DNA from: a virus
Virus record (IMG/VR): IMGVR_UViG_3300008108_001216
Location: 1 to 23,773 of that record
Length of the DNA stretch: 23,773 nt
Direction: 5' to 3' (one strand)
This document shows, piece by piece, positions 240 to 9,497 of this stretch (position 1 is its first letter; the number at the start of each line of letters is the position of its first letter). The translations under genes and the position numbers were made by a program. Under the pieces are notes generated by a model. The model made no database searches, was not told where the DNA came from, and saw nothing but the letters and a program-made list of their open reading frames with translations.

Positions 240-349
240 GACCAATCTCCCGTGATGATGCTATAGACCAAAAAACTGTAGAGCATGATCGTGGAAAGCA
301 CAACGCTACCAGCGACCAGTAAACCAACGTATGCCAAATCACGATTCAT
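236..349 (-). CDS. Small membrane protein (37 aa)
   Basis: The frame runs from the ATG at 349 to the TGA at 236-238, which overlaps the start of the next gene. The product begins MNRDLAYVGLLVAGSVV and is almost entirely one hydrophobic helix, residues about 5-33, so it is probably a single-pass inner-membrane protein. No close Shine-Dalgarno is visible. The start overlaps the stop of the preceding 31-residue gene, which suggests coupled translation. Function unknown. Confidence 0.6.
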   Translation of the reverse strand: MNRDLAYVGLLVAGSVVLSTIMLYSFLVYSIITGDWS

Positions 350-441
350 TGGGCAGCCTTTCCAGCCAGAAATCCAAGGCAAAACACAATGTTCAGAATC
401 GGCAGAATGAACACGAAAAAGATGAAACCAGCACGATACAT
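346..441 (-). CDS. Small membrane protein (31 aa)
   Basis: The first gene of a three-gene unit starts at the ATG at 441, preceded by a purine-rich leader (GGAAAAGAAA) and the promoter at 462-489. The product begins MYRAGFIFFVFILPIL and is one hydrophobic segment, residues 5-26, ending GKAAQ. It is too short for homology recognition. The case for it rests on promoter and leader spacing and on the ATGA overlap with the next gene. Function unknown. Confidence 0.6.
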   Translation of the reverse strand: MYRAGFIFFVFILPILNIVFCLGFLAGKAAQ

Positions 442-461
442 TTTCTTTTCCTTATATCGAC

Positions 462-489
462 ATTCTACAGGATGAATCTTGAAAGTCAA
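462..489 (-). promoter_or_regulatory. Sigma70-type promoter, class A (TTGACT-16-TAGAAT)
   Basis: On the minus strand TTGACT is followed after 16 nt by TAGAAT. Right after the -10 box comes GTCGATATAAG, a leader shared by seven promoters here (class A). The TGA of the gene at 486-656 lies inside the -35 box. It should drive the small membrane genes at 441-236 and the gene at 239-1. Confidence 0.8.
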
Positions 490-656
490 ATGCTAATCTG
501 TCGCATTTGCGGATCGAAAATCACGAACTCGACGATGCTCTTGTTGATGCTCTTGAAAAAGTTAGCCCTGTTGATAGCGTCATCCCTGCTATCGGCCAAC
601 AGGTGACCAAAGCGATTATCGCTGAAAATGAATCTGATCGTGAACTGGTTTTCCAT
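486..656 (-). CDS. Hypothetical small protein (56 aa)
   Basis: The ATG at 656 is preceded by the purine leader GAAAGAGAGACAAAGT and the class B promoter at 680-708. The product begins MENQFTIRFIFSDNRFG and ends FDPQMRQISI. It looks soluble, with a beta-alpha pattern, and I recognise no family. Its TGA (486-488) is part of the TTGACT -35 box of the next unit. An opposite-strand frame over the same bases has no leader or promoter and looks like a shadow. Confidence 0.75.
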   Translation of the reverse strand: MENQFTIRFIFSDNRFGHLLADSRDDAINRANFFKSINKSIVEFVIFDPQMRQISI

Positions 657-679
657 ACTTTGTCTCTCTTTCTCTCACT

Positions 680-708
680 ATTCTACACTCTATTTATCGG
701 TCTGTCAA
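680..708 (-). promoter_or_regulatory. Sigma70-type promoter, class B (TTGACA-17-TAGAAT)
   Basis: The minus strand has TTGACA, a 17-nt spacer containing CGATAAATAGAG, and TAGAAT. Four promoters share this CGATAAT-type spacer (680, 1424, 2136, 4428), and all four lie just downstream of a paired-palindrome element. It drives the gene at 486-656. Confidence 0.85.
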
Positions 709-737
709 TAGGTTTTTCTTGAAAAAATCTTTTTTGA

Positions 738-819
738 CGCAAGTGCTTGTGCTGTAAGAGTTTGCGAAAAATGCGGCCGCCCCGCCTCGATGTAAAGTCT
801 TATACATCAAGGCTTTGGG
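738..819 (-). repeat. Paired-palindrome element, copy 1 of 10
   Basis: Read on the minus strand directly after the stop of the gene at 820-1011, this is three hairpins. H1 (813-784) has an 11-bp stem (GCCTTGATGTA with TACATCGAGGC, one G-T pair) and the loop TAAGACTT. H2 (785-773) is a GC-rich palindrome, GCGG/CCGC. H3 (766-738) has outer stem CGCAA/TTGCG, a 3x3 internal loop and inner stem CTT/AAG. H1 and H3 are versions of the same ~32-bp unit. No T-run follows the stems directly. A module CAAAAAAGATTTTTT sits between H3 and the next promoter, as in copies 2 and 3. Confidence 0.85.
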
Positions 820-1011
820 TCAACTCTCCACATAATCGGTGAGTTCGTTCTGATTGAAAAGTCCGAACTGGCCATTCTCATCCTTAACGAAAAACATAAT
901 CAGCGGCTTTCCGTTTTCGATGATAACGTCGAAACTGTTAACCACAACCTTAGTACCCGAAAGAGTCTTTGCGGTCATGGTCACTACGTTGGTGATATCG
1001 TTGGTAATCAT
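820..1011 (-). CDS. Hypothetical small protein (63 aa)
   Basis: The frame runs from the ATG at 1011 to the TGA at 820-822. The product begins MITNDITNVVTMTAKTL and reads as a short beta-rich domain (VVVNSFDVIIENGKPLIMFFV). It is probably coupled to the membrane gene just upstream, whose TAA is directly followed by this ATG, since no separate ribosome site is visible. It ends right at paired-palindrome copy 1. Function unknown. Confidence 0.7.
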   Translation of the reverse strand: MITNDITNVVTMTAKTLSGTKVVVNSFDVIIENGKPLIMFFVKDENGQFGLFNQNELTDYVES

Positions 1012-1107
1012 TTAGCACCAGAAAACAAGAGGAATATAGATAAAAAGATACGCCCAACAGCCGAGCAAAAAACACACGATAAGATTGCTAGCAAAGTCGT
1101 TATACAT
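1012..1107 (-). CDS. Small membrane protein (31 aa)
   Basis: The ATG at 1107 is preceded by GAAAGAGAAAACA and the class A promoter at 1131-1158. The product begins MYNDFASNLIVCFLLG and is one hydrophobic helix with several aromatic residues. Its TAA abuts the ATG of the 63-residue gene, giving a two-gene unit. Only context supports it; function unknown. Confidence 0.6.
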   Translation of the reverse strand: MYNDFASNLIVCFLLGCWAYLFIYIPLVFWC

Positions 1108-1130
1108 TGTTTTCTCTTTCTTATATCGAC

Positions 1131-1158
1131 AGTTTACAGGCTAAACTTTAGTTGTCAA
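1131..1158 (-). promoter_or_regulatory. Sigma70-type promoter, class A (TTGACA-16-TAAACT)
   Basis: TTGACA is followed after 16 nt by TAAACT and then the class A leader GTCGATATAAG. The TGA of the gene at 1155-1394 is bases 2-4 after the first T of the -35 box. It drives the genes at 1012-1107 and 820-1011. Confidence 0.78.
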
Positions 1159-1394
1159 GCCTTGCGACGACGAAAAAATAGTTGAACGTATCCGACAACA
1201 TCAAAGAACACGCCCCAGATAGCCCACGGGGCAACGCTACAGAAAAAGAGCATAGACCACCAAGCGACGTAACTTTCACCGGCTTCGGGGATCACGTTAG
1301 GCTCTCCCCAACCCAGCATGAAAGTGATCTTCATGATCAGACAGAAAACAACGGCCCAAGCGATACCAAAAATCGTAGCACAGATGGTATTCAT
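1155..1394 (-). CDS. Membrane protein with two predicted helices (79 aa)
   Basis: The ATG at 1394 has a good Shine-Dalgarno (AAAGGAGAGGTT). The product begins MNTICATIFGIAWAVVF. Hydrophobic segments at about residues 3-27 and 44-73 flank a short polar loop (GEPNVIPEAGES), and the C-terminus is basic (FFRRRKA), as expected for a cytoplasmic tail. The TGA is inside the next -35 box. Function unknown. Confidence 0.75.
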   Translation of the reverse strand: MNTICATIFGIAWAVVFCLIMKITFMLGWGEPNVIPEAGESYVAWWSMLFFCSVAPWAIWGVFFDVVGYVQLFFRRRKA

Positions 1395-1423
1395 AACCTC
1401 TCCTTTGTGGTGGTGATACGAGT

Positions 1424-1451
1424 ATTCTATCTTCTATTATCGACCTGTCAA
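1424..1451 (-). promoter_or_regulatory. Sigma70-type promoter, class B (TTGACA-16-TAGAAT)
   Basis: The minus strand shows TTGACA, a 16-nt spacer GGTCGATAATAGAAGA and TAGAAT. It lies downstream of paired-palindrome copy 2 and drives the membrane gene at 1155-1394. Confidence 0.85.
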
Positions 1452-1480
1452 CAGGTTTTTCTTGAAAAAATCTTTTTTGC

Positions 1481-1562
1481 TGTAAGTCATTAGTAGATAA
1501 GAGTTTACAAGAAACGCGGGCGGCCCGCCTCGCCGCAAAGTCTTATACGGCAAGGCTTTAGG
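1481..1562 (-). repeat. Paired-palindrome element, copy 2 of 10
   Basis: H1 (1556-1527) has an 11-bp stem, GCCTTGCCGTA with TGCGGCGAGGC, around the same TAAGACTT loop as copy 1. The stem bases differ from copy 1 by paired changes (GATGTA/TACATC against GCCGTA/TGCGGC), which is covariation. H2 is GCGGG-CCG-CCCGC. H3 has outer stem TGTAA/TTACA. It starts within 2 nt of the stop of the gene at 1564-1842. Confidence 0.85.
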
Positions 1563-1563
1563 C

Positions 1564-1842
1564 TCAATCGTCATAACTTCCGTAGCCGTCATCGCTATGG
1601 AAATCCTCACGATCATCATCTCCATAGTAACCGTAGTCCTCGTCGGTTCCCCAGCCGCAAGAACTCATGGCACTATCATGATCGCCATCCATACTATCGT
1701 CGTAGTTATCATCCCACTGGTCGATCAGTTTATCACCGTCCAGATCATCGCCGTAGAAATCGTCATGGTCATCGTAGTTATAGTCCACGTTATCATCCTC
1801 ATAAGAGTTTTCGGGATCGAACAGGGGATCAGGGTGACTCAT
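1564..1842 (-). CDS. Highly acidic Asp/Tyr-rich protein (92 aa)
   Basis: The frame runs from the ATG at 1842 to the TGA at 1564-1566. By my count it has 31 Asp and 4 Glu against one Lys and one Arg, with many Tyr and Gly, in runs such as YNYDDHDDFYGDDLDGD. No fold or family is recognised. Strongly acidic small early phage proteins are sometimes DNA mimics (T7 Ocr, phage Arn), so inhibition of a DNA-binding host or defence protein is possible, but this is inference. It has its own promoter at 1901-1929 and a leader of about 50 nt. Codon use matches its neighbours. Confidence 0.8.
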   Translation of the reverse strand: MSHPDPLFDPENSYEDDNVDYNYDDHDDFYGDDLDGDKLIDQWDDNYDDSMDGDHDSAMSSCGWGTDEDYGYYGDDDREDFHSDDGYGSYDD

Positions 1843-1900
1843 CTTTCAGTCCTTCACGGTTACACAGATATAAAACAAACCAATATAGCACACAACAAAC

Positions 1901-1929
1901 AGAATAGCATCGATCATGGTTTTTGTCAA
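1901..1929 (-). promoter_or_regulatory. Sigma70-type promoter (TTGACA-17-TATTCT)
   Basis: The minus strand has TTGACA, 17 nt and TATTCT. It fits none of the three repeated spacer classes. The TGA of the gene at 1926-2105 lies inside the -35 box. It drives the acidic-protein gene. Confidence 0.65.
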
Positions 1930-2105
1930 GCCCCCACGCTTTCGGGGTAGATATCTTCAAGCAGCACATCGGCCAGACCCGTGACTTCCGCCCAATCCAT
2001 TGGGTGGCACGTCGGCTCGTCAATCGGCTCGACCATCGGCTCCAGAATACCCTGCTCCGCAAGGTCGGCCAGAATCGCGTTCACATCGTCGAAGTCGTTG
2101 AACAT
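1926..2105 (-). CDS. Hypothetical acidic small protein (59 aa)
   Basis: Two ATGs are possible, at 2111 and 2105. The Shine-Dalgarno GGAG (2117-2114) is 8 nt from the ATG at 2105 but only 2 nt from the one at 2111, so I chose 2105. The product begins MFNDFDDVNAILADLAEQ and is acidic and mainly helical at the N-terminus, ending EDIYPESVGA. Its TGA forms part of the next -35 box. Function unknown. Confidence 0.72.
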   Translation of the reverse strand: MFNDFDDVNAILADLAEQGILEPMVEPIDEPTCHPMDWAEVTGLADVLLEDIYPESVGA

Positions 2106-2135
2106 CGTCATTTCTCCGTTGAGGGTGATGCAGTG

Positions 2136-2163
2136 ATTCTACATACTATTATCGGCCTGTCAA
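2136..2163 (-). promoter_or_regulatory. Sigma70-type promoter, class B (TTGACA-16-TAGAAT)
   Basis: TTGACA, the 16-nt spacer GGCCGATAATAGTATG and TAGAAT are seen on the minus strand. It drives the gene at 1926-2105 and lies downstream of paired-palindrome copy 3. Confidence 0.85.
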
Positions 2164-2192
2164 TAGCCTTTTCTTCAGAAAATCTTTTTTGT

Positions 2193-2274
2193 CGCAAGTC
2201 CTTATACAATAAGGGTTTGGCACAAATCGTGCGGGCCGCGTTCGTCGTAAAGTCTTACGGCGTAACGCTTTGCG
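2193..2274 (-). repeat. Paired-palindrome element, copy 3 of 10
   Basis: H1 pairs GCGTT with AACGC and CGTA with TACG around the loop AGACTT. H2 is the GC-rich palindrome GCGGGCCGCG region. H3 pairs CGCAAGTCCTTAT with ATAAGGGTTTGG imperfectly. It lies 26 nt after the stop of the 35-residue gene at 2301-2408 and is followed by the CAAAAAAGATTTT module also seen after copies 1 and 2. Confidence 0.75.
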
Positions 2275-2300
2275 TCTAGTCTGCGATTAGTGTACGGATG

Positions 2301-2408
2301 TCACCCCTCTGCGAAGGGGGAGACTTCCTCGCCGCAGGCGAGAATCGCCGCGTACTGTTCGGCCAGAGCCGCCTTGCGTTCGGGCGAACCCGGCTTGCCA
2401 ACCTTCAC
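2301..2408 (-). CDS. Possible small protein (35 aa, GTG start)
   Basis: A frame from the GTG at 2408 to the TGA at 2301-2303 begins 2 nt after the stop of the 72-residue gene, so it could be translated by re-initiation. The product reads MKVGKPGSPERKAALAEQ (GTG read as Met) and is helical and charged. The frame continues upstream without an ATG. Without it, 137 nt here would be non-coding, unlike the dense packing elsewhere. Support is modest. Confidence 0.45.
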   Translation of the reverse strand: MKVGKPGSPERKAALAEQYAAILACGEEVSPFAEG

Positions 2409-2410
2409 GA

Positions 2411-2629
2411 TCAGCAGATCGTCACCCCCTTGTAGCGGGGATCGGCTTTCTCGGCCTTCACGCTACCGGCACGACGCAGTGCCTTGCGATTGAACTTCAA
2501 CACCTTTTCGCTACGGATCGGGCCGTACACGCCATCGGCCAGCGAGGGCTGGTGGCGGATTGCGATTCCCAGAAAGCACATGCGAGCCTGACGCTTGGCA
2601 TCTTCGATGATCTTGAACTTGGTAGCCAT
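2411..2629 (-). CDS. Hypothetical basic small protein (72 aa)
   Basis: The ATG at 2629 follows the leader AGAGAGAAAAAGAAA and the class C promoter at 2665-2693. The product begins MATKFKIIEDAKRQARM and is rich in Lys and Arg (KFNRKALRRAGSVKAEK), so nucleic-acid binding is plausible but not shown. I recognise no family. A different frame on the same strand (2511-2693) lacks a leader and is a shadow. Confidence 0.75.
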   Translation of the reverse strand: MATKFKIIEDAKRQARMCFLGIAIRHQPSLADGVYGPIRSEKVLKFNRKALRRAGSVKAEKADPRYKGVTIC

Positions 2630-2664
2630 TTTCTTTTTCTCTCTTGGTTGGTGATACTGGTACG

Positions 2665-2693
2665 ATTCTAGAAACTTTTTCCCGTCGCGTCAA
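2665..2693 (-). promoter_or_regulatory. Sigma70-type promoter, class C (TTGACG-17-TAGAAT)
   Basis: The class C spacer is CGACGGGAAAAAGTTTC. The TGA of the gene at 2690-2857 sits inside the -35 box. It drives the genes at 2411-2629 and, if real, 2301-2408. Confidence 0.8.
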
Positions 2694-2857
2694 CCCCTAT
2701 TTTCGGGGGTCAACTCGTCCTCGCTACAATCCCAATGGTTTCCGCCATCGGTCAGCACGAAGTAGACGATTCCCTCGTCGTAAAACTGGTTGAGTATCAC
2801 GCCGTGAATCGGCCTGTCGAAACCTTTCACAATCACCCTATCGCCAACTTGAAACAT
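2690..2857 (-). CDS. SH3/KOW-like small protein (55 aa)
   Basis: The ATG at 2857 is preceded by AGAGAGAAAAA. The product begins MFQVGDRVIVKGFDRPIHG and ends DELTPENRG. The start M-x-x-x-GD-x-V with a glycine near residue 12 and a following beta pattern resembles the other small genes here at 3949, 4215 and 5089, suggesting a duplicated SH3-barrel or KOW-like family. The fold call is inference from pattern. Its TGA is part of the next -35 box. Confidence 0.75.
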   Translation of the reverse strand: MFQVGDRVIVKGFDRPIHGVILNQFYDEGIVYFVLTDGGNHWDCSEDELTPENRG

Positions 2858-2878
2858 TTTTTCTCTCTTTCTCTAACT

Positions 2879-2907
2879 AATCTACCAAACTTTTCCCGCC
2901 GTTTCAA
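2879..2907 (-). promoter_or_regulatory. Sigma70-type promoter, class C (TTGAAA-17-TAGATT)
   Basis: TTGAAA, the spacer CGGCGGGAAAAGTTTGG and TAGATT are on the minus strand. The TGA of the gene at 2904-3092 lies in the -35 box. It drives the SH3-like gene at 2690-2857. Confidence 0.7.
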
Positions 2908-3092
2908 CCCCCCACAGAGGAGGGAAACAACTTATCCCCCACACTCTGGATCATATCAAGTTCGATCCTGTTTTCCTCACGGGATTCGGGCGATACGAAC
3001 GGGTTATCGGCCAGACTCTGGATTTCCGCCTTGCGACGAGCCAGACTAACGTAGACCAGAACGATTTCGGAAGGGGTGAGTTCGATTGGCAT
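2904..3092 (-). CDS. Hypothetical helical small protein (62 aa)
   Basis: The ATG at 3092 follows AGAAAGAGAGAAAGCAA and a class A promoter. The product begins MPIELTPSEIVLVYVSLA and looks like two helices joined at PFVSPES (residues 31-37). I recognise no family. The TGA is embedded in the next -35 box. Confidence 0.75.
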   Translation of the reverse strand: MPIELTPSEIVLVYVSLARRKAEIQSLADNPFVSPESREENRIELDMIQSVGDKLFPSSVGG

Positions 3093-3125
3093 TTGCTTTC
3101 TCTCTTTCTTACTTCTTATATCGAC

Positions 3126-3153
3126 ATTATACAGGCTATTCTTTAGGTTTCAA
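3126..3153 (-). promoter_or_regulatory. Sigma70-type promoter, class A (TTGAAA-16-TATAAT)
   Basis: TTGAAA, 16 nt and a consensus TATAAT are followed by the class A leader GTCGATATAAG. It drives the gene at 2904-3092. Confidence 0.85.
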
Positions 3154-3285
3154 GCAAAAAATCTGGATTTTTATGTCAAGAGATTTTGACACGAAATGAT
3201 ACGATTTTCTTTACGTTTGGCATACTGTTTGCTAGGGCAAAAACTGTGCCAAAACTTTTGATATGCGATTCACACATCCACTGAT
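3154..3285. other. Gene-free spacer with two inverted repeats
   Basis: The stretch between the promoter at 3126 and paired-palindrome copy 4 holds no supported gene. It contains TGTCAAGAGATTTTGACA-type dyad 3175-3192, repeated at 8118-8135, and a long inverted repeat at about 3213-3255 (TTTGGCA to TGCCAAA, inner GTTTGC/GCAAAaAC). Parts of the second recur at about 4492-4525, 6298-6328 and 8830-8854. An open frame at 3176-3358 covers only these repeats and is not accepted. Confidence 0.7.
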
Positions 3286-3367
3286 CGTAAACCCTTATCA
3301 CATAACGATTTACATCAAATCGGCCGCCGCCTATTTTCCATAAGTTCTTATATATCAAGGACTTACG
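3286..3367 (-). repeat. Paired-palindrome element, copy 4 of 10
   Basis: H1 on the minus strand pairs AAGTCCTT with AAGAACTT (one mismatch) around GATATAT. The centre is GGCGGCGGCC. H3 pairs GTAAATCGTTAT with ATAAGGGTTTAC, a stem interrupted by mismatches. It lies about 50 nt after the stop of the gene at 3420-3671; that gap contains another small dyad (TGTACC to GGTACA, 3376-3414). Confidence 0.75.
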
Positions 3368-3419
3368 CTGGCTGTACCCATCTTACCGAACCGACAGGTT
3401 AGGCTGGTACAACCCCCTC

Positions 3420-3671
3420 TCAGTAGGGGTGTCCGTATGCGTCCATAGTTCGCGGATACCGGCGGTTGTAATCCTCAACCCGTACGCAGTAGTCGTTCAG
3501 TTTCTGGTAGAACGTGTCAGCAGAACGGAGCAGCACGTTTTCGGGATGATTGTCAAGCCTCACGAACCATCCGCCACCACCAGAACCCACAATGGCAACG
3601 ATGGTATCATCTGGCATCATCTCGTTGATAGCGTCGAGAATCTCGTCAGCGGTAACGATTCGGCCAAGCAT
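3420..3671 (-). CDS. Hypothetical protein (83 aa)
   Basis: I chose the ATG at 3671, which follows AAAAGG by about 9 nt and starts 1 nt after the upstream stop. A longer frame (to 3776) would overlap the 74-residue gene heavily. The product begins MLGRIVTADEILDAINEM and contains IVAIVGSGGGGWFVRL, then a helical segment with Tyr and Arg (DTFYQKLNDYCVRVEDYN). No family recognised. It shares the transcript from the promoter at 3925-3952. Confidence 0.7.
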   Translation of the reverse strand: MLGRIVTADEILDAINEMMPDDTIVAIVGSGGGGWFVRLDNHPENVLLRSADTFYQKLNDYCVRVEDYNRRYPRTMDAYGHPY

Positions 3672-3672
3672 T

Positions 3673-3897
3673 TCAGAGAACCTTTTCAACTGAGGGAATC
3701 GGACCAAAAGCCGCACGAAGAGCAGCATACGATACTGCGTCCTCAAAGTCAACCCACAGATTTTCTCCACCGTCAACGGGGATCACATAGTATGCGATCA
3801 CTTCGCCGTCGTTGGTGCGAGCGACGCTGTCCACCTTACCATAAGCATAGGTGTCACCCATGCGAAACTGAATCATGTCACCCTTGTGAATATCCAT
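3673..3897 (-). CDS. SH3/KOW-like small protein (74 aa)
   Basis: The ATG at 3897 follows AAGAGAGAAAACAAAA. The product begins MDIHKGDMIQFRMGDTY, with KGD near the start, a glycine (YGKVDSVA) and further strands, the pattern of a small beta-barrel as in the neighbouring genes. It is the first gene of a two-gene unit. The family assignment is inference. Confidence 0.75.
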   Translation of the reverse strand: MDIHKGDMIQFRMGDTYAYGKVDSVARTNDGEVIAYYVIPVDGGENLWVDFEDAVSYAALRAAFGPIPSVEKVL

Positions 3898-3924
3898 TTT
3901 TGTTTTCTCTCTTGTGTTGAATGG

Positions 3925-3952
3925 ATTGTAGATGATTTTTTTGGCCTGTCAA
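3925..3952 (-). promoter_or_regulatory. Sigma70-type promoter, class C (TTGACA-16-TACAAT)
   Basis: TTGACA, the spacer GGCCAAAAAAATCATC and TACAAT are on the minus strand. The TGA of the gene at 3949-4161 is inside the -35 box. It drives the genes at 3673-3897 and 3420-3671. Confidence 0.8.
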
Positions 3953-4161
3953 CCCGAATAACTGTTCGTCAAATCCGGCCAGACGAGCGGAGCATCGATC
4001 CAAAACTCCACAGGGTTGGTATTGTTCTCATCTGCCGGAAAACGAACACGATACATAGCATCGCCGTATTCGTTAGCGGGAATGATTTTGACCACAATGG
4101 CTTTCTGGGTAGGAATGCCGATCCGCGAACCAACCATCACCGTGTCACCGACGTTGATCAT
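3949..4161 (-). CDS. SH3/KOW-like small protein (70 aa)
   Basis: The frame is open to 4287, but the ATG at 4161 has the leader AAGAGAAAGGGCAAAAC and correct promoter spacing, so I use it. The product begins MINVGDTVMVGSRIGIPTQ and contains DAMYRVRFPADENN. This closely parallels VAMYRVQFDSDASQ in the gene at 5089-5280, so the two are paralogues. Its TGA lies in the next -35 box. Function unknown. Confidence 0.8.
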   Translation of the reverse strand: MINVGDTVMVGSRIGIPTQKAIVVKIIPANEYGDAMYRVRFPADENNTNPVEFWIDAPLVWPDLTNSYSG

Positions 4162-4189
4162 GTTTTGCCCTTTCTCTTGTGTTGGATGG

Positions 4190-4218
4190 ATTGTAGAAGA
4201 TTTTTTCTGGCCTGTCAA
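4190..4218 (-). promoter_or_regulatory. Sigma70-type promoter, class C (TTGACA-17-TACAAT)
   Basis: TTGACA, 17 nt and TACAAT. It is nearly identical to the promoter at 3925-3952, including the flanking bases, and shows the same stop-in-box overlap. It drives the gene at 3949-4161. Confidence 0.8.
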
Positions 4219-4400
4219 CCCCCACTTCCGCAGGATGCTTCCCATTCGTGCGGTATATAGCCGTTGAGAATCTCTTGGGTCGAACACTCACATCGAACAC
4301 CAGCCAGATCGACCACCCATACATCACCCTCATCGAAATACCATCCGACGATCTTGCCAGAGATACCACCCATCCGAACCTTATCGCCAATCTCGAACAT
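4215..4400 (-). CDS. SH3/KOW-like small protein (61 aa)
   Basis: The ATG at 4400 follows AAAGAGAGGCTAGG. The product begins MFEIGDKVRMGGISGKIVG, followed by YFDEGDVWVVDLAGV, a beta-barrel-like pattern matching the genes at 2690, 3949 and 5089. The TGA is part of the next -35 box. Function unknown. Confidence 0.78.
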   Translation of the reverse strand: MFEIGDKVRMGGISGKIVGWYFDEGDVWVVDLAGVRCECSTQEILNGYIPHEWEASCGSGG

Positions 4401-4427
4401 CCTAGCCTCTCTTTCTTCTGTACCACT

Positions 4428-4455
4428 ATTCTACCATATATTATCGTCCTGTCAA
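4428..4455 (-). promoter_or_regulatory. Sigma70-type promoter, class B (TTGACA-16-TAGAAT)
   Basis: TTGACA, the spacer GGACGATAATATATGG and TAGAAT. It drives the gene at 4215-4400 and lies downstream of paired-palindrome copy 5. Confidence 0.85.
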
Positions 4456-4533
4456 TAGGCTTTCCTACAATATTTTTCCTTAAAAAATCGTAAGGTTTGC
4501 TAGAGCAAATACCATGCCAAAAGCCTATTTGTT

Positions 4534-4614
4534 CTAAGTCGTTATGCTGAAAGAGTTTGCGTCAAACTTGGGCGCCCGCGTTCGCCGTAAAGTATTACGG
4601 CTATGGGGTTTACG
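4534..4614 (-). repeat. Paired-palindrome element, copy 5 of 10
   Basis: H1 (4601-4584) is a perfect 6-bp stem, GCCGTA/TACGGC, around ATACTT. H2 is the palindrome GGGCGCCC. H3 runs from CGCAAACTCTTT to AACGACTTAG with weak pairing. The stop codon of the gene at 4610-4825 lies inside the element. To its left (4486-4527) is a related repeat, GTTTGCTAGAGCAAAT followed by ATGCCAAAA. Confidence 0.75.
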
Positions 4615-4825
4615 TTGCGTGGATGAACACGCGTTCACTGGTGGTCTTATTCGTGATGGTCACGATCCAGTTTCGGCCGCTACCATCCTCACGCATGATT
4701 CCGTTGACAAGGCCAGCATATACCCGGCCCTTCGGGTCGATCACACTAGTATACTTACCAGCGATCATGGACGCGAAGATAGTATTGAGGCTGTTCTTTC
4801 GGTTAGCGTAAGCAGTGCCAAACAT
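4610..4825 (-). CDS. Hypothetical small protein (71 aa)
   Basis: The ATG at 4825 lies 12 nt after the stop of the 66-residue gene, with AAAGA upstream. The product begins MFGTAYANRKNSLNTIFA and contains YTSVIDPKGRVYAGLVNG and WIVTITNKTTSERVF, a beta-rich pattern. No family recognised. It is the second gene of a unit and ends within paired-palindrome copy 5. Confidence 0.72.
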   Translation of the reverse strand: MFGTAYANRKNSLNTIFASMIAGKYTSVIDPKGRVYAGLVNGIMREDGSGRNWIVTITNKTTSERVFIHAT

Positions 4826-4837
4826 TTTAGTATTCTT

Positions 4838-5038
4838 TCAGAGATTGTGAGTGTGATAGGTCTTACCGCGAGCATCCTTGACGGTCAACACCAAGTCGCC
4901 GTACATTTTCTTTTCCATTTGGATATCGATCACGGCATTCACAAAAAAGTTAGCCTCCAACAACGTGCTGAAGTGACGATCCTTATTCCGCTCGTCGTTC
5001 TCACCGTAGAATGCCGAAACAATCCAAAAGTTTTCCAT
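4838..5038 (-). CDS. Hypothetical small protein (66 aa)
   Basis: The ATG at 5038 follows AAGAGAAAGAGAATC. The frame is open further upstream, but across the promoter, so a start there is rejected. The product begins MENFWIVSAFYGENDERN and ends ARGKTYHTHNL. No family recognised. It is the first gene of the unit from the promoter at 5065-5092. Confidence 0.75.
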   Translation of the reverse strand: MENFWIVSAFYGENDERNKDRHFSTLLEANFFVNAVIDIQMEKKMYGDLVLTVKDARGKTYHTHNL

Positions 5039-5064
5039 GATTCTCTTTCTCTTGTGTTGTGATG

Positions 5065-5092
5065 ATGATAGCAGATTTTTTCGGCTTGTCAA
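5065..5092 (-). promoter_or_regulatory. Sigma70-type promoter, class C (TTGACA-16-TATCAT)
   Basis: TTGACA, the spacer AGCCGAAAAAATCTGC and TATCAT. The TGA of the gene at 5089-5280 lies in the -35 box. It drives the genes at 4838-5038 and 4610-4825. Confidence 0.75.
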
Positions 5093-5280
5093 TCCCACCC
5101 GTAAGGCTGATCAACAAACGGACCATAGATCATGCCCTCGTCAAGCCAACGCTGGCTAGCATCGGAGTCAAACTGCACCCGATACATAGCGACACGATCA
5201 CCGATAGAGGGCAGAATGTCCGTCACCGTGGCCCATGCCAAATCCGAACCAATCTGCACCCGGTCACCAATCTGAATCAT
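5089..5280 (-). CDS. SH3/KOW-like small protein (63 aa)
   Basis: The ATG at 5280 follows a good ribosome site, AAAGGGAAAGC. The product begins MIQIGDRVQIGSDLAWATV and contains VAMYRVQFDSDASQRW and YGPFVDQ. It matches the gene at 3949-4161 in start, spacing and the AMYRV motif, so they are paralogues. The TGA is part of the next -35 box. Confidence 0.8.
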   Translation of the reverse strand: MIQIGDRVQIGSDLAWATVTDILPSIGDRVAMYRVQFDSDASQRWLDEGMIYGPFVDQPYGWD

Positions 5281-5303
5281 GCTTTCCCTTTCGTGTTGAG
5301 ATT

Positions 5304-5331
5304 ATTTTACCAGACTTTTTCGCCCCGTCAA
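5304..5331 (-). promoter_or_regulatory. Sigma70-type promoter, class C (TTGACG-16-TAAAAT)
   Basis: TTGACG, the spacer GGGCGAAAAAGTCTGG and TAAAAT. The upstream stop is 7 nt before the -35 box. It drives the gene at 5089-5280. Confidence 0.75.
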
Positions 5332-5338
5332 TCCCCTC

Positions 5339-5572
5339 TCATCGGGGGATCGTAATCAGTCCGTTGTAGTGCGAGAACGTCAGTGTGAGAACCTTGCCAG
5401 GATACTTCTCGTCGATATACCGCTGTGCGGTACTCTTGCTGTTGTCCGTAGCAGCAACGTGCTGAACAACTGTTCCATCGGTATCGGTCACCTTCCACAC
5501 TTTCTTCTGCACGATCCGAGGAAGGCTGTTGATGAAACCGTTGACGCTAGTGGACTTCTGAATACCGTACAT
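5339..5572 (-). CDS. Hypothetical protein, paralogue of the gene at 6882-7085 (77 aa)
   Basis: The ATG at 5572 follows GAGAGTTGAGA. The product contains SVNGFINSLPRI, KVWKVTDTDGTVVQ and ATDNSKSTAQRYIDEKYP. The gene at 6882-7085 has SVNGFIASLPKI, KIWNVVIDGKVVQ and ATDNRQSTAEAYIAQKYP in the same order, so these are duplicated copies. The fold may be a small beta-beta-alpha domain; function unknown. Confidence 0.82.
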   Translation of the reverse strand: MYGIQKSTSVNGFINSLPRIVQKKVWKVTDTDGTVVQHVAATDNSKSTAQRYIDEKYPGKVLTLTFSHYNGLITIPR

Positions 5573-5611
5573 TCTCAACTCTCTTTCTTTCTCTCTTACT
5601 CTTATATCGAC

Positions 5612-5639
5612 ATTATAGCAGGCAAATCTTGAATGTCAA
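5612..5639 (-). promoter_or_regulatory. Sigma70-type promoter, class A (TTGACA-16-TATAAT)
   Basis: Consensus TTGACA and TATAAT with a 16-nt spacer, followed by the class A leader GTCGATATAAG. It drives the gene at 5339-5572 and lies downstream of paired-palindrome copy 6. Confidence 0.9.
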
Positions 5640-5670
5640 TAAAAAACTTTCCTTAAAACTTCGTAATGTT

Positions 5671-5752
5671 CGTAAGTCTTTATTGGATAAGACTTTGGTA
5701 CGAATCGTGCCGCCCCGGCTTGACGTAAAGTCAATAGCCTAAAGGGTTTAGA
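5671..5752 (-). repeat. Paired-palindrome element, copy 6 of 10
   Basis: H1 pairs GGC with GCC and TTGAC with GTCAA with a 2-nt bulge. The centre is GCCGGGGCGGC. H3 pairs AAGTCTT with AAGACTT, seven perfect pairs. It directly follows the stop of the HU-like gene. Confidence 0.8.
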
Positions 5753-6031
5753 TCAGCCGATCCGCTCGGCCATAGCCTTGCCAGCCTTGAACCGCACCAC
5801 CCGACGCTCACCGATCATCACGCTCTCCCCCGTTCGGGGGTTGCGAGCCTTGCGAGGAGCGGTCACCTTCACGGTGAACACGCCGAAGTTTCGCAGTTCG
5901 ATCCGGCCGGTCGTGGCGAGCGTTTCGATCATGCTGTCGAGCGTAGCCTGCACGATTTCGCGGGCCTGCTCACCCGTCACGCCAACCTTCTCCGCGATAC
6001 CCTCAACCATGCTTCGCTTCGTTCCAACCAT
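5753..6031 (-). CDS. HU/IHF-family DNA-binding protein
   Basis: A histone-like protein of 92 residues, the usual HU length. The N-terminal helices (residues 1-40) are followed by GRIELRNFGVF (42-52) and the arm motif RNPRTGE (63-69), which inserts in the DNA minor groove in this family. It then ends VRFKAGKAMAERIG. HU proteins dimerise and bend DNA; in phage they may shape the genome or act in replication or recombination. Two ATGs fit: GGAG lies 9 nt from the ATG at 6031 but only 3 nt from the one at 6037, so I chose 6031. It is transcribed from the promoter at 6060-6088. Confidence 0.95.
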   Translation of the reverse strand: MVGTKRSMVEGIAEKVGVTGEQAREIVQATLDSMIETLATTGRIELRNFGVFTVKVTAPRKARNPRTGESVMIGERRVVRFKAGKAMAERIG

Positions 6032-6059
6032 TTTCATCGTCTCCAGTGGTGATGTCGCT

Positions 6060-6088
6060 ATTCTACCGAAAGTTTTTCAGCCTGTCAA
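6060..6088 (-). promoter_or_regulatory. Sigma70-type promoter, class C (TTGACA-17-TAGAAT)
   Basis: TTGACA, the spacer GGCTGAAAAACTTTCGG and TAGAAT. The TGA of the 42-residue gene is inside the -35 box. It drives the HU-like gene. Confidence 0.82.
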
Positions 6089-6213
6089 TCCCCCCTACCC
6101 GTAAAATCACACTCCGCGAACATCCGACCGTCCGGCGTATGCACCAACACCACACGATACGTCTCGCTACCCCAGATAGCCTTGAGAACGTCGTTCACCT
6201 TTTGCTTGTTCAT
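6085..6213 (-). CDS. Hypothetical small protein (42 aa)
   Basis: The ATG at 6213 follows AAAGAGAGGATACG and the class A promoter at 6245-6273. The product begins MNKQKVNDVLKAIWGSE and contains RVVLVHTPDGRMFAE. It is short but has the same leader and promoter as its neighbours, and its TGA falls in the next -35 box. Function unknown. Confidence 0.68.
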   Translation of the reverse strand: MNKQKVNDVLKAIWGSETYRVVLVHTPDGRMFAECDFTGRGD

Positions 6214-6244
6214 CGTATCCTCTCTTTCTTTCTCTTATATCGAC

Positions 6245-6273
6245 ATTATACCATGCTTTTCTTTAGGATGCAA
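6245..6273 (-). promoter_or_regulatory. Sigma70-type promoter, class A (TTGCAT-17-TATAAT)
   Basis: TTGCAT, 17 nt and TATAAT, followed by the class A leader. The -35 box is weaker than in the other class A members. It drives the 42-residue gene. Confidence 0.78.
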
Positions 6274-6338
6274 ATGGATTTTTGCTTAAAACTTCGTAAG
6301 GTTTCCTACAGCAAATTCCGTGCCAAAGCCTTGTTCGT

Positions 6339-6420
6339 CCTAAGTCGTTATGCAGTAATGGTTTGCGTCAAATCGGGTCGCCCCGGCTCGACGTAAAGTC
6401 TTTAGCCGTAAGGGTTTGCG
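6339..6420 (-). repeat. Paired-palindrome element, copy 7 of 10
   Basis: H1 pairs CGGCT with AGCCG and GAC with GTC. The centre is GGGGCGACCCG. H1 and H3 are visibly the same unit: CGCAAACCCTTACGG against CGCAAACCATTACTG. It directly follows the stop of the gene at 6421-6603. The module at 6293-6328 (CGTAAGGTTTCCTACAGCAAAT, then GTGCCAAA) lies between it and the next promoter. Confidence 0.8.
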
Positions 6421-6603
6421 TCAGGCCACGGCGTCCATCGCGGCCATTTTTTCCACAGCCCCACGATAGAGGGGGTAGAACTCGTCCAGTGGACAGTTGT
6501 TCACGACGAGCGAGCCGTCGATATACAGGCAGTACGTATTCGGTACTTCGACCGAAACGGTCCAGACGAGCGGGCGAGAATCGTTGATGTTCTTCGGGTT
6601 CAT
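6421..6603 (-). CDS. Hypothetical small protein (60 aa)
   Basis: The ATG at 6603 follows AAAGAGAGAACAGA; the frame extends upstream through the promoter, so that start is rejected. The product begins MNPKNINDSRPLVWTVSV and contains CLYIDGSLVVNNCPLDEF. No family recognised. It ends exactly at paired-palindrome copy 7. Confidence 0.75.
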   Translation of the reverse strand: MNPKNINDSRPLVWTVSVEVPNTYCLYIDGSLVVNNCPLDEFYPLYRGAVEKMAAMDAVA

Positions 6604-6628
6604 TCTGTTCTCTCTTTCTTGTGATGCT

Positions 6629-6657
6629 ATTCTATAGAAACTTTTTCGCCGTGTCAA
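6629..6657 (-). promoter_or_regulatory. Sigma70-type promoter, class C (TTGACA-17-TAGAAT)
   Basis: TTGACA, the spacer CGGCGAAAAAGTTTCTA and TAGAAT. The upstream stop is 5 nt before the -35 box. It drives the 60-residue gene. Confidence 0.85.
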
Positions 6658-6662
6658 CCCCC

Positions 6663-6809
6663 TCAAGTGGCGGAGGCGTTCATAAACCTTTCGGCCTCAT
6701 AGGAACTCTTGAAGGTTGCAAGCAGTTGACGGGAATACCCGTTAGGATACTTCCTCTCACGATAAACCTTATACTTACCCTTCACGACGATCAGAACCAG
6801 CATTTCCAT
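6663..6809 (-). CDS. Hypothetical small protein, paralogue of the gene at 7906-8034 (48 aa)
   Basis: The ATG at 6809 follows AGAGAGAAAGAA; an in-frame ATG at 6803 is an alternative. The product begins MEMLVLIVVKGKYKVYR and ends LATFKSSYEAERFMNASAT. The gene at 7906-8034 ends LGTFKTSDAGIRCMNAYAS, the same pattern, so the two are related. Function unknown. Confidence 0.72.
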   Translation of the reverse strand: MEMLVLIVVKGKYKVYRERKYPNGYSRQLLATFKSSYEAERFMNASAT

Positions 6810-6834
6810 TTCTTTCTCTCTTTCTTGTGAATAT

Positions 6835-6863
6835 ATTCTAGTGACTTTTTTCCGTCGTGTAAA
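6835..6863 (-). promoter_or_regulatory. Sigma70-type promoter, class C (TTTACA-17-TAGAAT)
   Basis: TTTACA, the spacer CGACGGAAAAAAGTCAC and TAGAAT. The upstream stop is 18 nt before the -35 box. It drives the 48-residue gene. Confidence 0.75.
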
Positions 6864-6881
6864 CCCCCATGTTGGGGGGTC

Positions 6882-7085
6882 TCAGATTTTCCATCCTTTG
6901 AAGATCAGCGTAAACTGCGTATTCGGATACTTTTGTGCAATATACGCTTCTGCCGTAGATTGCCTATTGTCCGTAGCACTCACACCTTGCACAACCTTAC
7001 CATCTATTACAACATTCCAAATCTTACGCTTGCGAATCTTGGGAAGACTTGCGATGAAACCATTGACACTCATAACCTTTTCCAT
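6882..7085 (-). CDS. Hypothetical protein, paralogue of the gene at 5339-5572 (67 aa)
   Basis: The ATG at 7085 follows GAGAGAGTTGAGA, nearly the same leader as in its paralogue at 5572. The product begins MEKVMSVNGFIASLPKI and shares three blocks with the paralogue. The two copies differ enough that the duplication is not recent. Function unknown. Confidence 0.8.
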   Translation of the reverse strand: MEKVMSVNGFIASLPKIRKRKIWNVVIDGKVVQGVSATDNRQSTAEAYIAQKYPNTQFTLIFKGWKI

Positions 7086-7106
7086 TCTCAACTCTCTCTT
7101 TCTTAT

Positions 7107-7135
7107 ACCATATATAAGAGCAATCGGTGTGCCAA
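7107..7135 (-). promoter_or_regulatory. Weak or degenerate promoter (TTGGCA-17-TATGGT)
   Basis: This is the only left-arm gene whose upstream region lacks a clear promoter. TTGGCA with TATGGT at 17 nt is the best pairing I see, and TATAAG lies just downstream. The flank resembles a worn class A leader. It would drive the gene at 6882-7085. Confidence 0.4.
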
Positions 7136-7388
7136 ACATAGATTATTTTTTATTGCGTATTTCTCGGAAAAAACACTATGACATTTTTTGTGCCCACATA
7201 TTGAGCGTAGCATTTTGCAACACCCTGTAGCATTTTGCGTTAGTGGTTTTGGCCGCAAAACTGAGTCAGTGTAGCATTTTGCAACACATTACCTATCTTA
7301 TCGTGCTCATTATTTGTGCAGAGAATTATTTATTCTTTGGCATGAGATTTGCTCTTAAACAGAAGATCGTGTCGATCAGCAGATTAGT
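7136..7388. other. Gene-free spacer with three direct repeats (iteron-like)
   Basis: I see no supported gene here. GTAGCATTTTGC occurs three times, at 7207, 7227 and 7271; the first and third copies extend to GTAGCATTTTGCAACAC. Further right are TTTGGCA with GATTTGCTC (about 7336-7352) and AAACAGAAGATCGTG with TCGATC (7356-7380), both recurring upstream of copies 9 and 10 of the paired-palindrome element. Iterated sites like these can bind a replication initiator or repressor; that role is inference. Confidence 0.75.
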
Positions 7389-7470
7389 CGTAAGTGCTTA
7401 TCCAGAAAGGATTTACGTCAAATCGGGCCGCCCCAATTCGTCCTAAACCCTTATGAGCAAAGGATTTATG
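7389..7470 (-). repeat. Paired-palindrome element, copy 8 of 10
   Basis: H1 has a 9-bp stem, TAAATCCTT with AAGGGTTTA (one G-T pair), loop TGCTCAT. H2 pairs AATTGGG with CCCGATT around GCGG. H3 pairs CGTAA with TTACG and CTT with AAG around TCTGGAT. It lies 1 nt after the stop of the 38-residue gene. Confidence 0.85.
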
Positions 7471-7471
7471 A

Positions 7472-7588
7472 TCAACGGGTGAGCATCACTGCAATGGCCA
7501 ACGCCTTGCGCTCGTAGCATCCGTAGATACCGCCATCGATAAGGATCGTCCAGTGTCCGGGTCGGATTGGGTGTGGGATAACTTTCAT
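7472..7588 (-). CDS. Hypothetical small protein, possibly leaderless mRNA (38 aa)
   Basis: The frame runs from the ATG at 7588 to the TGA at 7472-7474. The product begins MKVIPHPIRPGHWTILID and ends ALAIAVMLTR. The ATG is only 6 nt downstream of the TAGAAT -10 box, so transcription would start at or beside the start codon, and no ribosome site exists. Either the mRNA is leaderless or the true promoter lies elsewhere. Function unknown. Confidence 0.62.
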   Translation of the reverse strand: MKVIPHPIRPGHWTILIDGGIYGCYERKALAIAVMLTR

Positions 7589-7594
7589 GGCTGT

Positions 7595-7623
7595 ATTCTA
7601 TCGAAACTTTTTCGTCGCGTCAA
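7595..7623 (-). promoter_or_regulatory. Sigma70-type promoter, class C (TTGACG-17-TAGAAT)
   Basis: TTGACG, the spacer CGACGAAAAAGTTTCGA and TAGAAT. The upstream stop is 5 nt before the -35 box. It drives the 38-residue gene with almost no leader. Confidence 0.82.
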
Positions 7624-7628
7624 CCCCC

Positions 7629-7847
7629 TCATTTGAGGGATCGATTTTTCGTGTCGTTGCTCATCGAAAGAGAATCGTAGATTGTTCGCACCACCCATTC
7701 CATATCCACATTGGTGAAAACGTTGTACCCGATCACGAGATCGAACAGGTTGTACGTTCCATCGTAGTTACGATCTACGCGAAGGCCAACCTTCGCGGCA
7801 TACTTGGCAACGTTCTTGCGAATGGTGTCGAACTTGGGGTTGTTCAT
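7629..7847 (-). CDS. Hypothetical protein (72 aa)
   Basis: The ATG at 7847 follows AGAAAGAGAGAAAAGC. The product begins MNNPKFDTIRKNVAKYAA, continues with VDRNYDGTYNLFDLVIG, then a helical part, and ends SNDTKNRSLK. The pattern suggests a small alpha-beta domain. No family recognised. Confidence 0.78.
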   Translation of the reverse strand: MNNPKFDTIRKNVAKYAAKVGLRVDRNYDGTYNLFDLVIGYNVFTNVDMEWVVRTIYDSLSMSNDTKNRSLK

Positions 7848-7871
7848 GCTTTTCTCTCTTTCTGTATCTGT

Positions 7872-7900
7872 ATTCTATCGAAACTTTTCCGCCGTGTCAA
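7872..7900 (-). promoter_or_regulatory. Sigma70-type promoter, class C (TTGACA-17-TAGAAT)
   Basis: TTGACA, the spacer CGGCGGAAAAGTTTCGA and TAGAAT. The upstream stop is 5 nt before the -35 box. It drives the 72-residue gene at 7629-7847. Confidence 0.85.
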
Positions 7901-7905
7901 CCCCC

Positions 7906-8034
7906 TCAACTGGCGTATGCGTTCATGCAACGGATGCCAGCGTCGGAAGTCTTAAACGTACCGAGCAGAACCTTTCGGCCATTCTTGTAGCCGTAAACCT
8001 TGAACACCTTGCCAACCTGAATCATCGTAGTCAT
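7906..8034 (-). CDS. Hypothetical small protein, paralogue of the gene at 6663-6809 (42 aa)
   Basis: The ATG at 8034 follows AAAGAGAGAAAGAC; a longer frame through the promoter is rejected. The product begins MTTMIQVGKVFKVYGYKNG and ends FKTSDAGIRCMNAYAS. The start MIQVGK resembles the SH3-like genes, while the end matches the gene at 6663-6809. Function unknown. Confidence 0.72.
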   Translation of the reverse strand: MTTMIQVGKVFKVYGYKNGRKVLLGTFKTSDAGIRCMNAYAS

Positions 8035-8067
8035 GTCTTTCTCTCTTTCCTTTTCTCTTATATCGAC

Positions 8068-8096
8068 ATTATACCATGACAATCTTGAGTTTGCAA
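8068..8096 (-). promoter_or_regulatory. Sigma70-type promoter, class A (TTGCAA-17-TATAAT)
   Basis: TTGCAA, 17 nt and TATAAT, followed by the class A leader GTCGATATAAG. It drives the 42-residue gene at 7906-8034. Confidence 0.82.
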
Positions 8097-8215
8097 GAAA
8101 AAAATCCATATTTTTGTGTCAAGAGATTTTGACAAAACTTTTTACGATTTTCTATCTCTTTGGCACAGCGTTTGCTGTTTGCTAAACAGAAGATCGTGTC
8201 GATCATCGTATTAGT

Positions 8216-8297
8216 CGTAAGTGCCTGCACACAAAGGATTTACGTCAAATCGGGCCGCCCCGATTCGCTCTAAACCCTTACGGGCAAAGATTTTACG
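8216..8297 (-). repeat. Paired-palindrome element, copy 9 of 10
   Basis: H2 is a perfect 7-bp stem, AATCGGG/CCCGATT, around GCGG. H3 pairs CGTAA with TTACG. H1 runs CGTAAAATCTTT to AAGGGTTTAGAG. Just left, at 8187-8205, is AGAAGATCGTG with a GATCG/CGATC dyad. It ends 1 nt from the stop of the 49-residue gene. Confidence 0.82.
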
Positions 8298-8298
8298 C

Positions 8299-8448
8299 TC
8301 AGAGAATCGTACCATCACCACGGATGCGGTACATGATTCCGCCGATACTGTACAGATATATACCCTCGCCCATGTTCTGAACGAACGTGGCCGAATATCC
8401 ATGGCGAGCAACCAACCGGCGAATCGTATTTTGGATTTGGCTTGTCAT
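8299..8448 (-). CDS. Hypothetical small protein (49 aa)
   Basis: The frame runs from the ATG at 8448 to the TGA at 8299-8301. The ribosome site is AAAGGGAATAGA, and the upstream promoter is a perfect consensus. The product begins MTSQIQNTIRRLVARHG and contains YLYSIGGIMYRIRGDG. The larger opposite-strand frame over this region lacks any such signals. Function unknown. Confidence 0.72.
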   Translation of the reverse strand: MTSQIQNTIRRLVARHGYSATFVQNMGEGIYLYSIGGIMYRIRGDGTIL

Positions 8449-8466
8449 TCTATTCCCTTTCGCTGC

Positions 8467-8495
8467 ATTATACCTATCGTCTTTTATCGTGTCAA
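8467..8495 (-). promoter_or_regulatory. Perfect sigma70 consensus promoter (TTGACA-17-TATAAT)
   Basis: Both hexamers match the consensus exactly with the ideal 17-nt spacer. Its spacer (CGATAAAAGACGATAGG) and short leader fit none of the three classes. It drives the 49-residue gene. Confidence 0.9.
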
Positions 8496-8511
8496 GCCTC
8501 TAGGAATATTT

Positions 8512-8742
8512 TTAGCAGATTGCGAAATCGTTCACAACGTAGCCCATCTCGTCGATCTGAATGAATCCGCCATCATCGCAGAATCCCAGATCTTCGTCGA
8601 TTGCGATTTCGTTGTCATTCGCACGAACACGCTCCAGCAGATCGCCAGCGAACGCAACACGATTCACGAACGTGTCCATCGTCGTGTTGTTGATCAGGTC
8701 ACGAAGTTCGGAAACGGTGTTGATGACGATCATGTTTTCCAT
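8512..8742 (-). CDS. Hypothetical acidic protein (76 aa)
   Basis: The ATG at 8742 follows AGAGAGAAAGAAA and a class A promoter; an in-frame Met at residue 4 is an alternative. The product begins MENMIVINTVSELRDLIN, a helical N-terminal half followed by an acidic segment, EIAIDEDLGFCDDGGF, and ends YVVNDFAIC. No family recognised. It is the outermost gene of the cassette array. Confidence 0.78.
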   Translation of the reverse strand: MENMIVINTVSELRDLINNTTMDTFVNRVAFAGDLLERVRANDNEIAIDEDLGFCDDGGFIQIDEMGYVVNDFAIC

Positions 8743-8774
8743 TTTCTTTCTCTCTTTCTCTTTCTTATATCGAC

Positions 8775-8802
8775 ATTATACCATAGATTTCTTGAGTGTC
8801 AA
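8775..8802 (-). promoter_or_regulatory. Sigma70-type promoter, class A (TTGACA-16-TATAAT)
   Basis: Consensus TTGACA and TATAAT at 16 nt, followed by the class A leader GTCGATATAAG. It drives the gene at 8512-8742. Confidence 0.9.
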
Positions 8803-8906
8803 CAAAAAACTTTCCTTACAATACCGAAAGATTGCCTACAGCAAATGCTATGCCATAAAATATCTTATTTTTTTAAACAGAAGATCGTTTCGATCATCAT
8901 ATTAGC

Positions 8907-8988
8907 CCTAAGTCATTGTCACATAAGCATTTAGGTCAAAAAATGACGAGCATATTCGACGTAAACTCTTATACCACAACAGGTTAGG
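8907..8988 (-). repeat. Paired-palindrome element, copy 10 of 10 (divergent)
   Basis: This last copy keeps the CCTAAATGCTTATGTGA half and the TAAGAGTTTACGTCGA half, but its centre (ATATGCTCGTCATTTTTT) has lost the GC-rich palindrome. AACAGAAGATCG with a GATCG/CGATC dyad precedes it at 8877-8895, and a related repeat with TTGCCTACAGCAAATG lies at 8831-8847. It follows no recognisable gene. It marks the right end of the array and of the GC-rich region. Confidence 0.7.
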
Positions 8989-9013
8989 GGGATTTTATGT
9001 TTTTTGCTGTCAA

Positions 9014-9083: not shown

Positions 9084-9497
9084 CTAAACATTCGTATTAA
9101 GCCTTCGATTCTTATTTCTCTTTAGAATCTCAGGATACTTTTCTCTTAAACCCAGTTTCCTTTCCCAACTATAGATCATATAAGATACTTTTTCCCCACC
9201 CAATTCACAGTTTCTATTCCATCGTGATTCATAGTGTTCGCTTAGTTTAATTATATCAGCGCCACACTCTTTCCACTTATCCTCAAATTCCTTTGGAAAA
9301 TCGCCCCTTTTATCCAGAGCATTGTCCTGATAGGTTCCTTCTGCTAAATGATCCGCATTATAGCATCGCGGGTTATTACATTTGTGTCGTATTAACTCAG
9401 GATATGTTCCGTATTTTTCCCAAAAGGCCACCCTGTGCTTATAAAAATATTTACCATCTCCATTTTTTCTACGTAATGATTTAATAATCACCTTCAT
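9084..9497 (-). CDS. HNH homing-type endonuclease
   Basis: A free-standing nuclease of 137 residues. The motif RHKCNNPRCYNADHLAEGT (residues 37-55) followed by DNALDK is the HNH beta-beta-alpha metal site of phage HNH_3-type homing enzymes, with C40, C45 and H50 visible. The C-terminal half is basic and helical (SWERKLGLREKYPEILK) and may recognise DNA. Its ATG overlaps the TGA of the GIY-YIG gene (ATGA), so the two are co-translated. Such enzymes normally cut an allele lacking them and spread by repair. It is AT-rich, unlike the cassette array to its left. Confidence 0.88.
   Translation of the reverse strand: MKVIIKSLRRKNGDGKYFYKHRVAFWEKYGTYPELIRHKCNNPRCYNADHLAEGTYQDNALDKRGDFPKEFEDKWKECGADIIKLSEHYESRWNRNCELGGEKVSYMIYSWERKLGLREKYPEILKRNKNRRLNTNV

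Follow-up and report, generated by a model that had tools for sequence, protein, structure and literature searches.

What are the repeated palindromic elements that punctuate the small-gene array of this phage, and what do they do there? The window, by which we mean the whole 23.8-kb stretch of DNA analysed, is a fragment of a tailed phage. Small leftward genes form an array over 1-8990, many of them with a strong sigma70-type promoter of their own, and beyond it lie further leftward genes and then a rightward late module (terminase, portal, tail) that also includes a gene related to a major capsid protein. The capsid protein had no PHROG match and only Bacillus phage G as a distant match, the terminase matched at 27% to Bacillus phages Slash/Stahl, and a tRNA search found no tRNA genes.

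An earlier note on this DNA had described ten copies of one repeat in the array. All ten were recovered, each 83 bp long and alignable without gaps, and they are given here with the neighbouring promoters and one large palindrome:

680..708, minus strand: sigma70-type promoter TTGACA-17-TAGAAT, downstream of copy 1
738..820, minus strand: type-A copy 1 (profile, alignment and pattern), with an 11-bp H1 hairpin, loop TAAGACTT
1451-1424: similar sigma70-type promoter, copy 2
1481..1563, minus strand: type-A copy 2 (alignment, pattern, profile)
2163-2136: similar sigma70-type promoter, copy 3
2193..2275, minus strand: type-A copy 3 (profile)
3215..3256, unstranded: large palindrome TTTGGCATACTGTTTGC...GCAAAAACTGTGCCAAA beside copy 4, its halves resembling a sigma54 -24/-12 site
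3286..3368, minus strand: type-A copy 4 (alignment, pattern, profile)
4455-4428: similar sigma70-type promoter, copy 5
4533..4615, minus strand: type-A copy 5, overlapping the stop of gene 4610-4825
5639-5612: similar sigma70-type promoter, copy 6
5671..5753, minus strand: type-A copy 6 (alignment, pattern, profile)
6339..6421, minus strand: type-A copy 7 (alignment, pattern, profile)
7389..7471, minus strand: type-A copy 8, adjoining the stop of the 38-codon ORF 7474-7587
8216..8298, minus strand: type-A copy 9 (alignment, pattern, profile)
8802-8775: similar sigma70-type promoter, copy 10
8907..8989, minus strand: type-A copy 10, upstream of the array's first promoter

An 81-column degenerate pattern gave 18 matches in the window, all accounted for by these ten copies, and none in 100 dinucleotide shuffles; most copies, being near-palindromic, are matched on either strand. 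As had been described, the copies nearly always lie just after a gene, nine of the ten starting about 0-51 nt past a leftward stop codon. Copy 10, 95 nt from an HNH gene, is the exception, and its equivalent in the relative L063 lies at about 603-685. Positions 9084-10081, which separate copy 10 from the conserved leftward genes, encode an HNH endonuclease and what may be another endonuclease or a DNA-binding protein, for which PHROG gave no match; this insertion is absent from L063. The array also contains an HU-family DNA-binding gene (PF00216; 5753-6031) with homologues in 12 other fetched loci, and an HTH-like DNA-binding protein is encoded at 10467-10694.

The element, designated type A, consists of two 29-bp dyads, 53 bp apart, flanking a GC-rich core. 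In model positions, an outer arm (1-11), a 7-bp variable spacer and an inner arm (19-29) lead into the core (30-53), which is followed by a second inner arm (54-64), a spacer and an outer arm (72-82). The initial picture, with a palindrome on either side of a GC-rich centre, was sound and can be refined to a nested palindrome, with the dyads centred at 15.0 and 68.0 and the whole element at 41.5 (frequency-profile r 0.85, 0.90 and 0.90, respectively). All four half-sites are similar, each resembling CGTAANNNCTT, and the shift-53 profile correlation was 0.92. The length is rigid, with no net indel in 556 of 573 full-length type-A hits, and the mean identity between copies is only about 58%.

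Scanning IMG/VR with the 81-column pattern yielded 66 stretches, and searching every fetched locus with a profile brought the family to 427 unique type-A copies, carried by large uncultured phages of mostly 50-240 kb; the element is therefore present in related phages. Five long type-A records (150-238 kb) carry 7-19 copies each, confined to one 12-20 kb region. Type A had no match in bacterial genomes, and cultured phages gave no real match. The suggestion that it belongs to no named family agrees with an Rfam search, which gave no match, and with a literature search of incomplete coverage, which found no account of it. Judged by these comparisons, it would appear to be a previously undescribed boundary element and a phage-specific family.

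Using a codon-trained gene caller for the context counts, we found that 337 of 350 copies sit between same-direction genes, at a median of 10 nt past the stop codon (quartiles 0-69) and a median of 98 nt before the next start. A sigma70 promoter with at least 10 of 12 matches preceded the next gene at 244 of 327 elements, compared with 259 of 661 element-free junctions, and for a second form of the element, type B, a promoter adjoined it in 200 of 237 cases. That the element divides the array into groups of genes was upheld as a placement at transcription-unit boundaries: it adjoins a stop codon and is usually followed by the promoter of the next unit. Preferred distances from element to -35 were about 18 and 28 bp for type A and about 14 and 25 bp for type B. 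The type-A clusters (about 18 and 28 bp) persisted after strict removal of related sequences, in a jitter test that ignores descent. Stop-to--35 distances were clustered as well at control junctions lacking the element, so part of this preference may reflect shared descent. At element-free junctions (e.g. 2690-2712, 5330-5350, 6858-6880, 7620-7640), a short CCCCC/GGGGG hairpin is frequent between the stop codon and the -35.

The claim of a constant strand is true of the window (10 of 10 on the minus strand) but not of the five long type-A relatives, where 52 run with the genes and 17 against them; for type B, 50 of 50 tandem cases in nine records run along the genes. Such directional placement of a near-palindrome counts against an operator model and needs an extra explanation. 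An RNA element, the transcript of which folds past the stop codon into a terminator, an RNase site or a 3'-end stabiliser, would account for the start at the stop codon and for the wholly gene-oriented type B, and the element RNA does fold more stably than dinucleotide-shuffled sequences (z about -3). The hairpin noticed earlier (H1, i+j=43) is also real, but distinct from the dyad: the spacer of the left dyad pairs with sequence just past that dyad. The paired stem changes reported for copies 1, 2 and 5 are genuine, and within genomes, on the stop-codon side only, H1 shows covariation (Zcomb +5.9), with 68 double-change cells where shuffled data gave 44.3 +/- 6.7. At least 9 of its 11 pairs are formed in only 16% of copies, against 10% expected.

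The main palindromes behave otherwise than the stems of a structured RNA family, for which covariation would be expected beyond H1 in a subset of copies. The inner half-sites covary between genomes (z 10-13.5), and as a sign of base pairing this signal was strong at first and vanished under within-genome permutation. Pairing across the whole-element dyad fell below expectation within genomes (Zcomb -7.8), and the two 29-bp dyads showed no within-genome covariation. Covariation between but not within genomes is the pattern expected if recognition specificity differs among clades, and we attribute the inner-arm signal to clade-specific recognition together with avoidance of perfect palindromes rather than to base pairing. 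In both types, A.C mismatches on the gene strand are as common as or commoner than G.U, unlike in an RNA stem, and the length is fixed to the base while loops and core vary. A T-run, noted as absent from the window, is indeed rare (at least 5 T in the 7 bases past the core in 11% of cases on the gene strand and 4% on the other strand), and among the window copies only copy 2 drew a terminator-like call. With the negative Rfam result also against it, an RNA element is in our view unlikely. The claim that pairing itself is selected stands for the H1 helix in a subset of copies and fails as a general rule. Based on these data, we concluded that recognition is in general at the DNA level; an added hairpin is possible in some copies, where the H1 covariation may indicate an additional RNA role.

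Type B is built on TGCCA-AAA-TGGCA dyads. In the close relative L153, type A is absent and the same array carries type-B dyads reading TGCCA[A/T]TTTGGCA, placed 29 bp apart around a GC-rich core. A type-B pattern scan returned 79 stretches and 238 unique copies; the 29-bp dyad spacing occurred 381 times and any other spacing at most 17 times. The only bacterial candidate for type B, an AT-rich Clostridia repeat, has no GC core and was judged unrelated. Among 306 loci, 116 had A only, 82 had B only and none had both, and none of ten long records (five A, five B) contained complete copies of the other type. Type does not track genome relatedness, as within-type identity exceeds between-type identity by only 0.9 points. 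The two types occupy matching junctions: for genes ending at an A element, homologues in B phages end at a B element in 224 of 415 cases (54%), compared with 265 of 748 (35%) for control genes. The homologues of gene 2411-2629, which ends beside copy 3, are followed in B phages by a type-B element in 33 of 40 matches.

The exclusion of A and B is strong, but not absolute, and a few genomes mix modules. Because L204, L207 and L162 combine different palindromes around one core, a single factor per genome is not the whole story. Together with L153, these three show naturally occurring hybrids and other kinds of dyad flanking the GC core, and further types may turn up there. In L204, L162 and L215, CCCCC/GGGGG hairpins replace a dyad beside the GC-rich core. 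A gene for a SpoU-like RNA methyltransferase was present in four of the five B records (G025, G026, G027 and G028) and in none of the five A records.

The earlier note had also raised cassette exchange at the element. We called a junction switched when a pair of copies shared one flank (at least 200 bp at 80% identity or more) and differed in the other, and found 115 switched pairs against 320 with both flanks related. Flanking genes are therefore swapped, but estimated breakpoints were spread evenly over the whole element, which ruled out a fixed crossover point, and the tyrosine integrase domain PF00589 was found in none of 36 records (51-238 kb), with all controls positive. With breakpoints spread and no recombinase found, the elements are frequent sites of exchange, for which general recombination is the simplest explanation.

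These results bear on two readings in which exchange is the primary function. The first is that an integrase exchanges cassettes at a site-specific recombination site resembling attC or dif. The arm-spacer-arm-core-arm-spacer-arm layout with its 7-bp spacer, the near palindrome, the position past stop codons and the switched pairs all recall attC, and attC clusters without an integrase are described in virulent phages (PMC9892861). However, the AAC/GTT triplet of the RYYYAAC / GTTRRRY boxes is absent (column frequencies of 4% for the C of AAC and 11% for the G of GTT), the length is fixed, and the units often contain several genes with their own promoters. The box sequence, integrase and breakpoint tests exclude identity with attC, and we regard a site of this general kind as very improbable.

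The second reading takes its model from the promoter early stem-loop (PeSL) of T4-like phages (Arbiol 2010; Comeau 2014, as cited in PMC4503421, PMC3950731), a unit of which the like has been reported for the haloarchaeal virus HGTV-1 (PMC4503421, PMC3950731). As outlined there, a PeSL joins a host-type early promoter to a palindrome between small genes and is tied to gene shuffling. Our elements share both features, the sigma70-type promoter beside a palindrome (A 244/327; B 200/237) and the shuffling of gene modules (115 switched and 320 conserved pairs), and it could be supposed that their main selected role is to supply the short stretches of homology that shuffling needs, a promoter and a terminator coming with them. 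However, about 58% mean identity makes them a poor substrate for homology, and the exact spacing and half-site conservation go beyond what homology alone would need. Relative to the PeSL as far as those sources describe it, the element also differs in being a nested double dyad of rigid length, 83 bp (or 42 bp), with a GC core and interchangeable dyad types, and in lacking the T-run of an intrinsic terminator (the tail is T-rich in 11% of cases and, on the other strand, in 4%). We consider this reading quite unlikely.

On balance, the element is probably a directional site, read as double-stranded DNA, that controls and delimits the early expression cassettes of a group of large tailed phages, a reading we hold with limited confidence. 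Two operator-like dyads stand at an exact distance from each other around the GC-rich core, the next unit's strong sigma70 promoter usually follows within a few tens of bases, and the dyad sequence can be replaced by type B at corresponding junctions in related phages. Both dyads would be bound by one or more sequence-specific dimeric or tetrameric DNA-binding factors of host or phage origin. The bound factor would control or insulate the next early promoter by activation, by shut-off or by blocking read-through in a polar manner, as stoperators do. Being repeated and placed between units, the element is also a site where phages trade whole cassettes by recombination. Of the roles suggested in the earlier note, a protein-binding dyad fits best, and a recombination site survives only as a place of exchange.

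No candidate factor gene was present in all five A records and in none of the B records, and the few genes shared by all B records were largely ORFs reading through the elements themselves. The host may supply the factor, or a conserved phage protein may have changed its specificity. Motifs of the sigma54-like form TTGGCAY-N4/5-TTGC occur eight times in the window, against 0.2 expected, mostly beside elements (3218, 3251, 4519, 6325, 7134, 7338, 8161, 8855). They lie in both orientations, often as half of a palindrome TTTGGCAY...TTGC...GCAA...RTGCCAAA, and Sigma54_activat matches were weak and partial, which speaks against a sigma54 enhancer; the palindrome at 3215..3256 is possibly part of the regulatory module. 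Clustering of many dyads in one region per genome might instead suggest a multicopy replication origin, a centromere or a packaging site. The clusters span about 7-22 kb in the records read and lie strictly between genes, with the elements oriented with those genes and adjoining promoters, which makes such a site most unlikely.

A control and boundary site of this kind would seem closest in its working to PeSLs and to the stoperators of cluster A mycobacteriophages, which are numerous, lie in short intergenic spaces, are oriented with transcription and vary in specificity among phages (PMC9283540). The intergenic position and orientation are common to both. In contrast, stoperators are single asymmetric 13-mers distributed genome-wide, whereas the element is a composite double dyad in one early array. 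Stoperators are bound by a phage repressor; among the element phages, element-spanning ORFs apart, no type-specific gene was common to all five records of a type, and no integrase was found.

More tentatively, the elements may form a new class of cis-element in which palindromic 'address' modules, interchangeable and of type A, B or rarer kinds, lie on either side of a GC-rich core common to all. As a rule, every copy in a genome would bear the same module, with the whole set changing together from one related phage to another; only phages with the same address would then recognise, control and exchange early cassettes. Large phages carry long arrays of small early genes, and the element bears on how such arrays are controlled and reshuffled, since it marks their unit boundaries in many uncultured large phages and has an easily searched signature. 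Intermixed lineages that bear one or the other dyad type at corresponding junctions amount to a natural experiment. Once found, the binding factor would reveal whether host or phage sets the type, and it may explain which phages trade early genes with one another.
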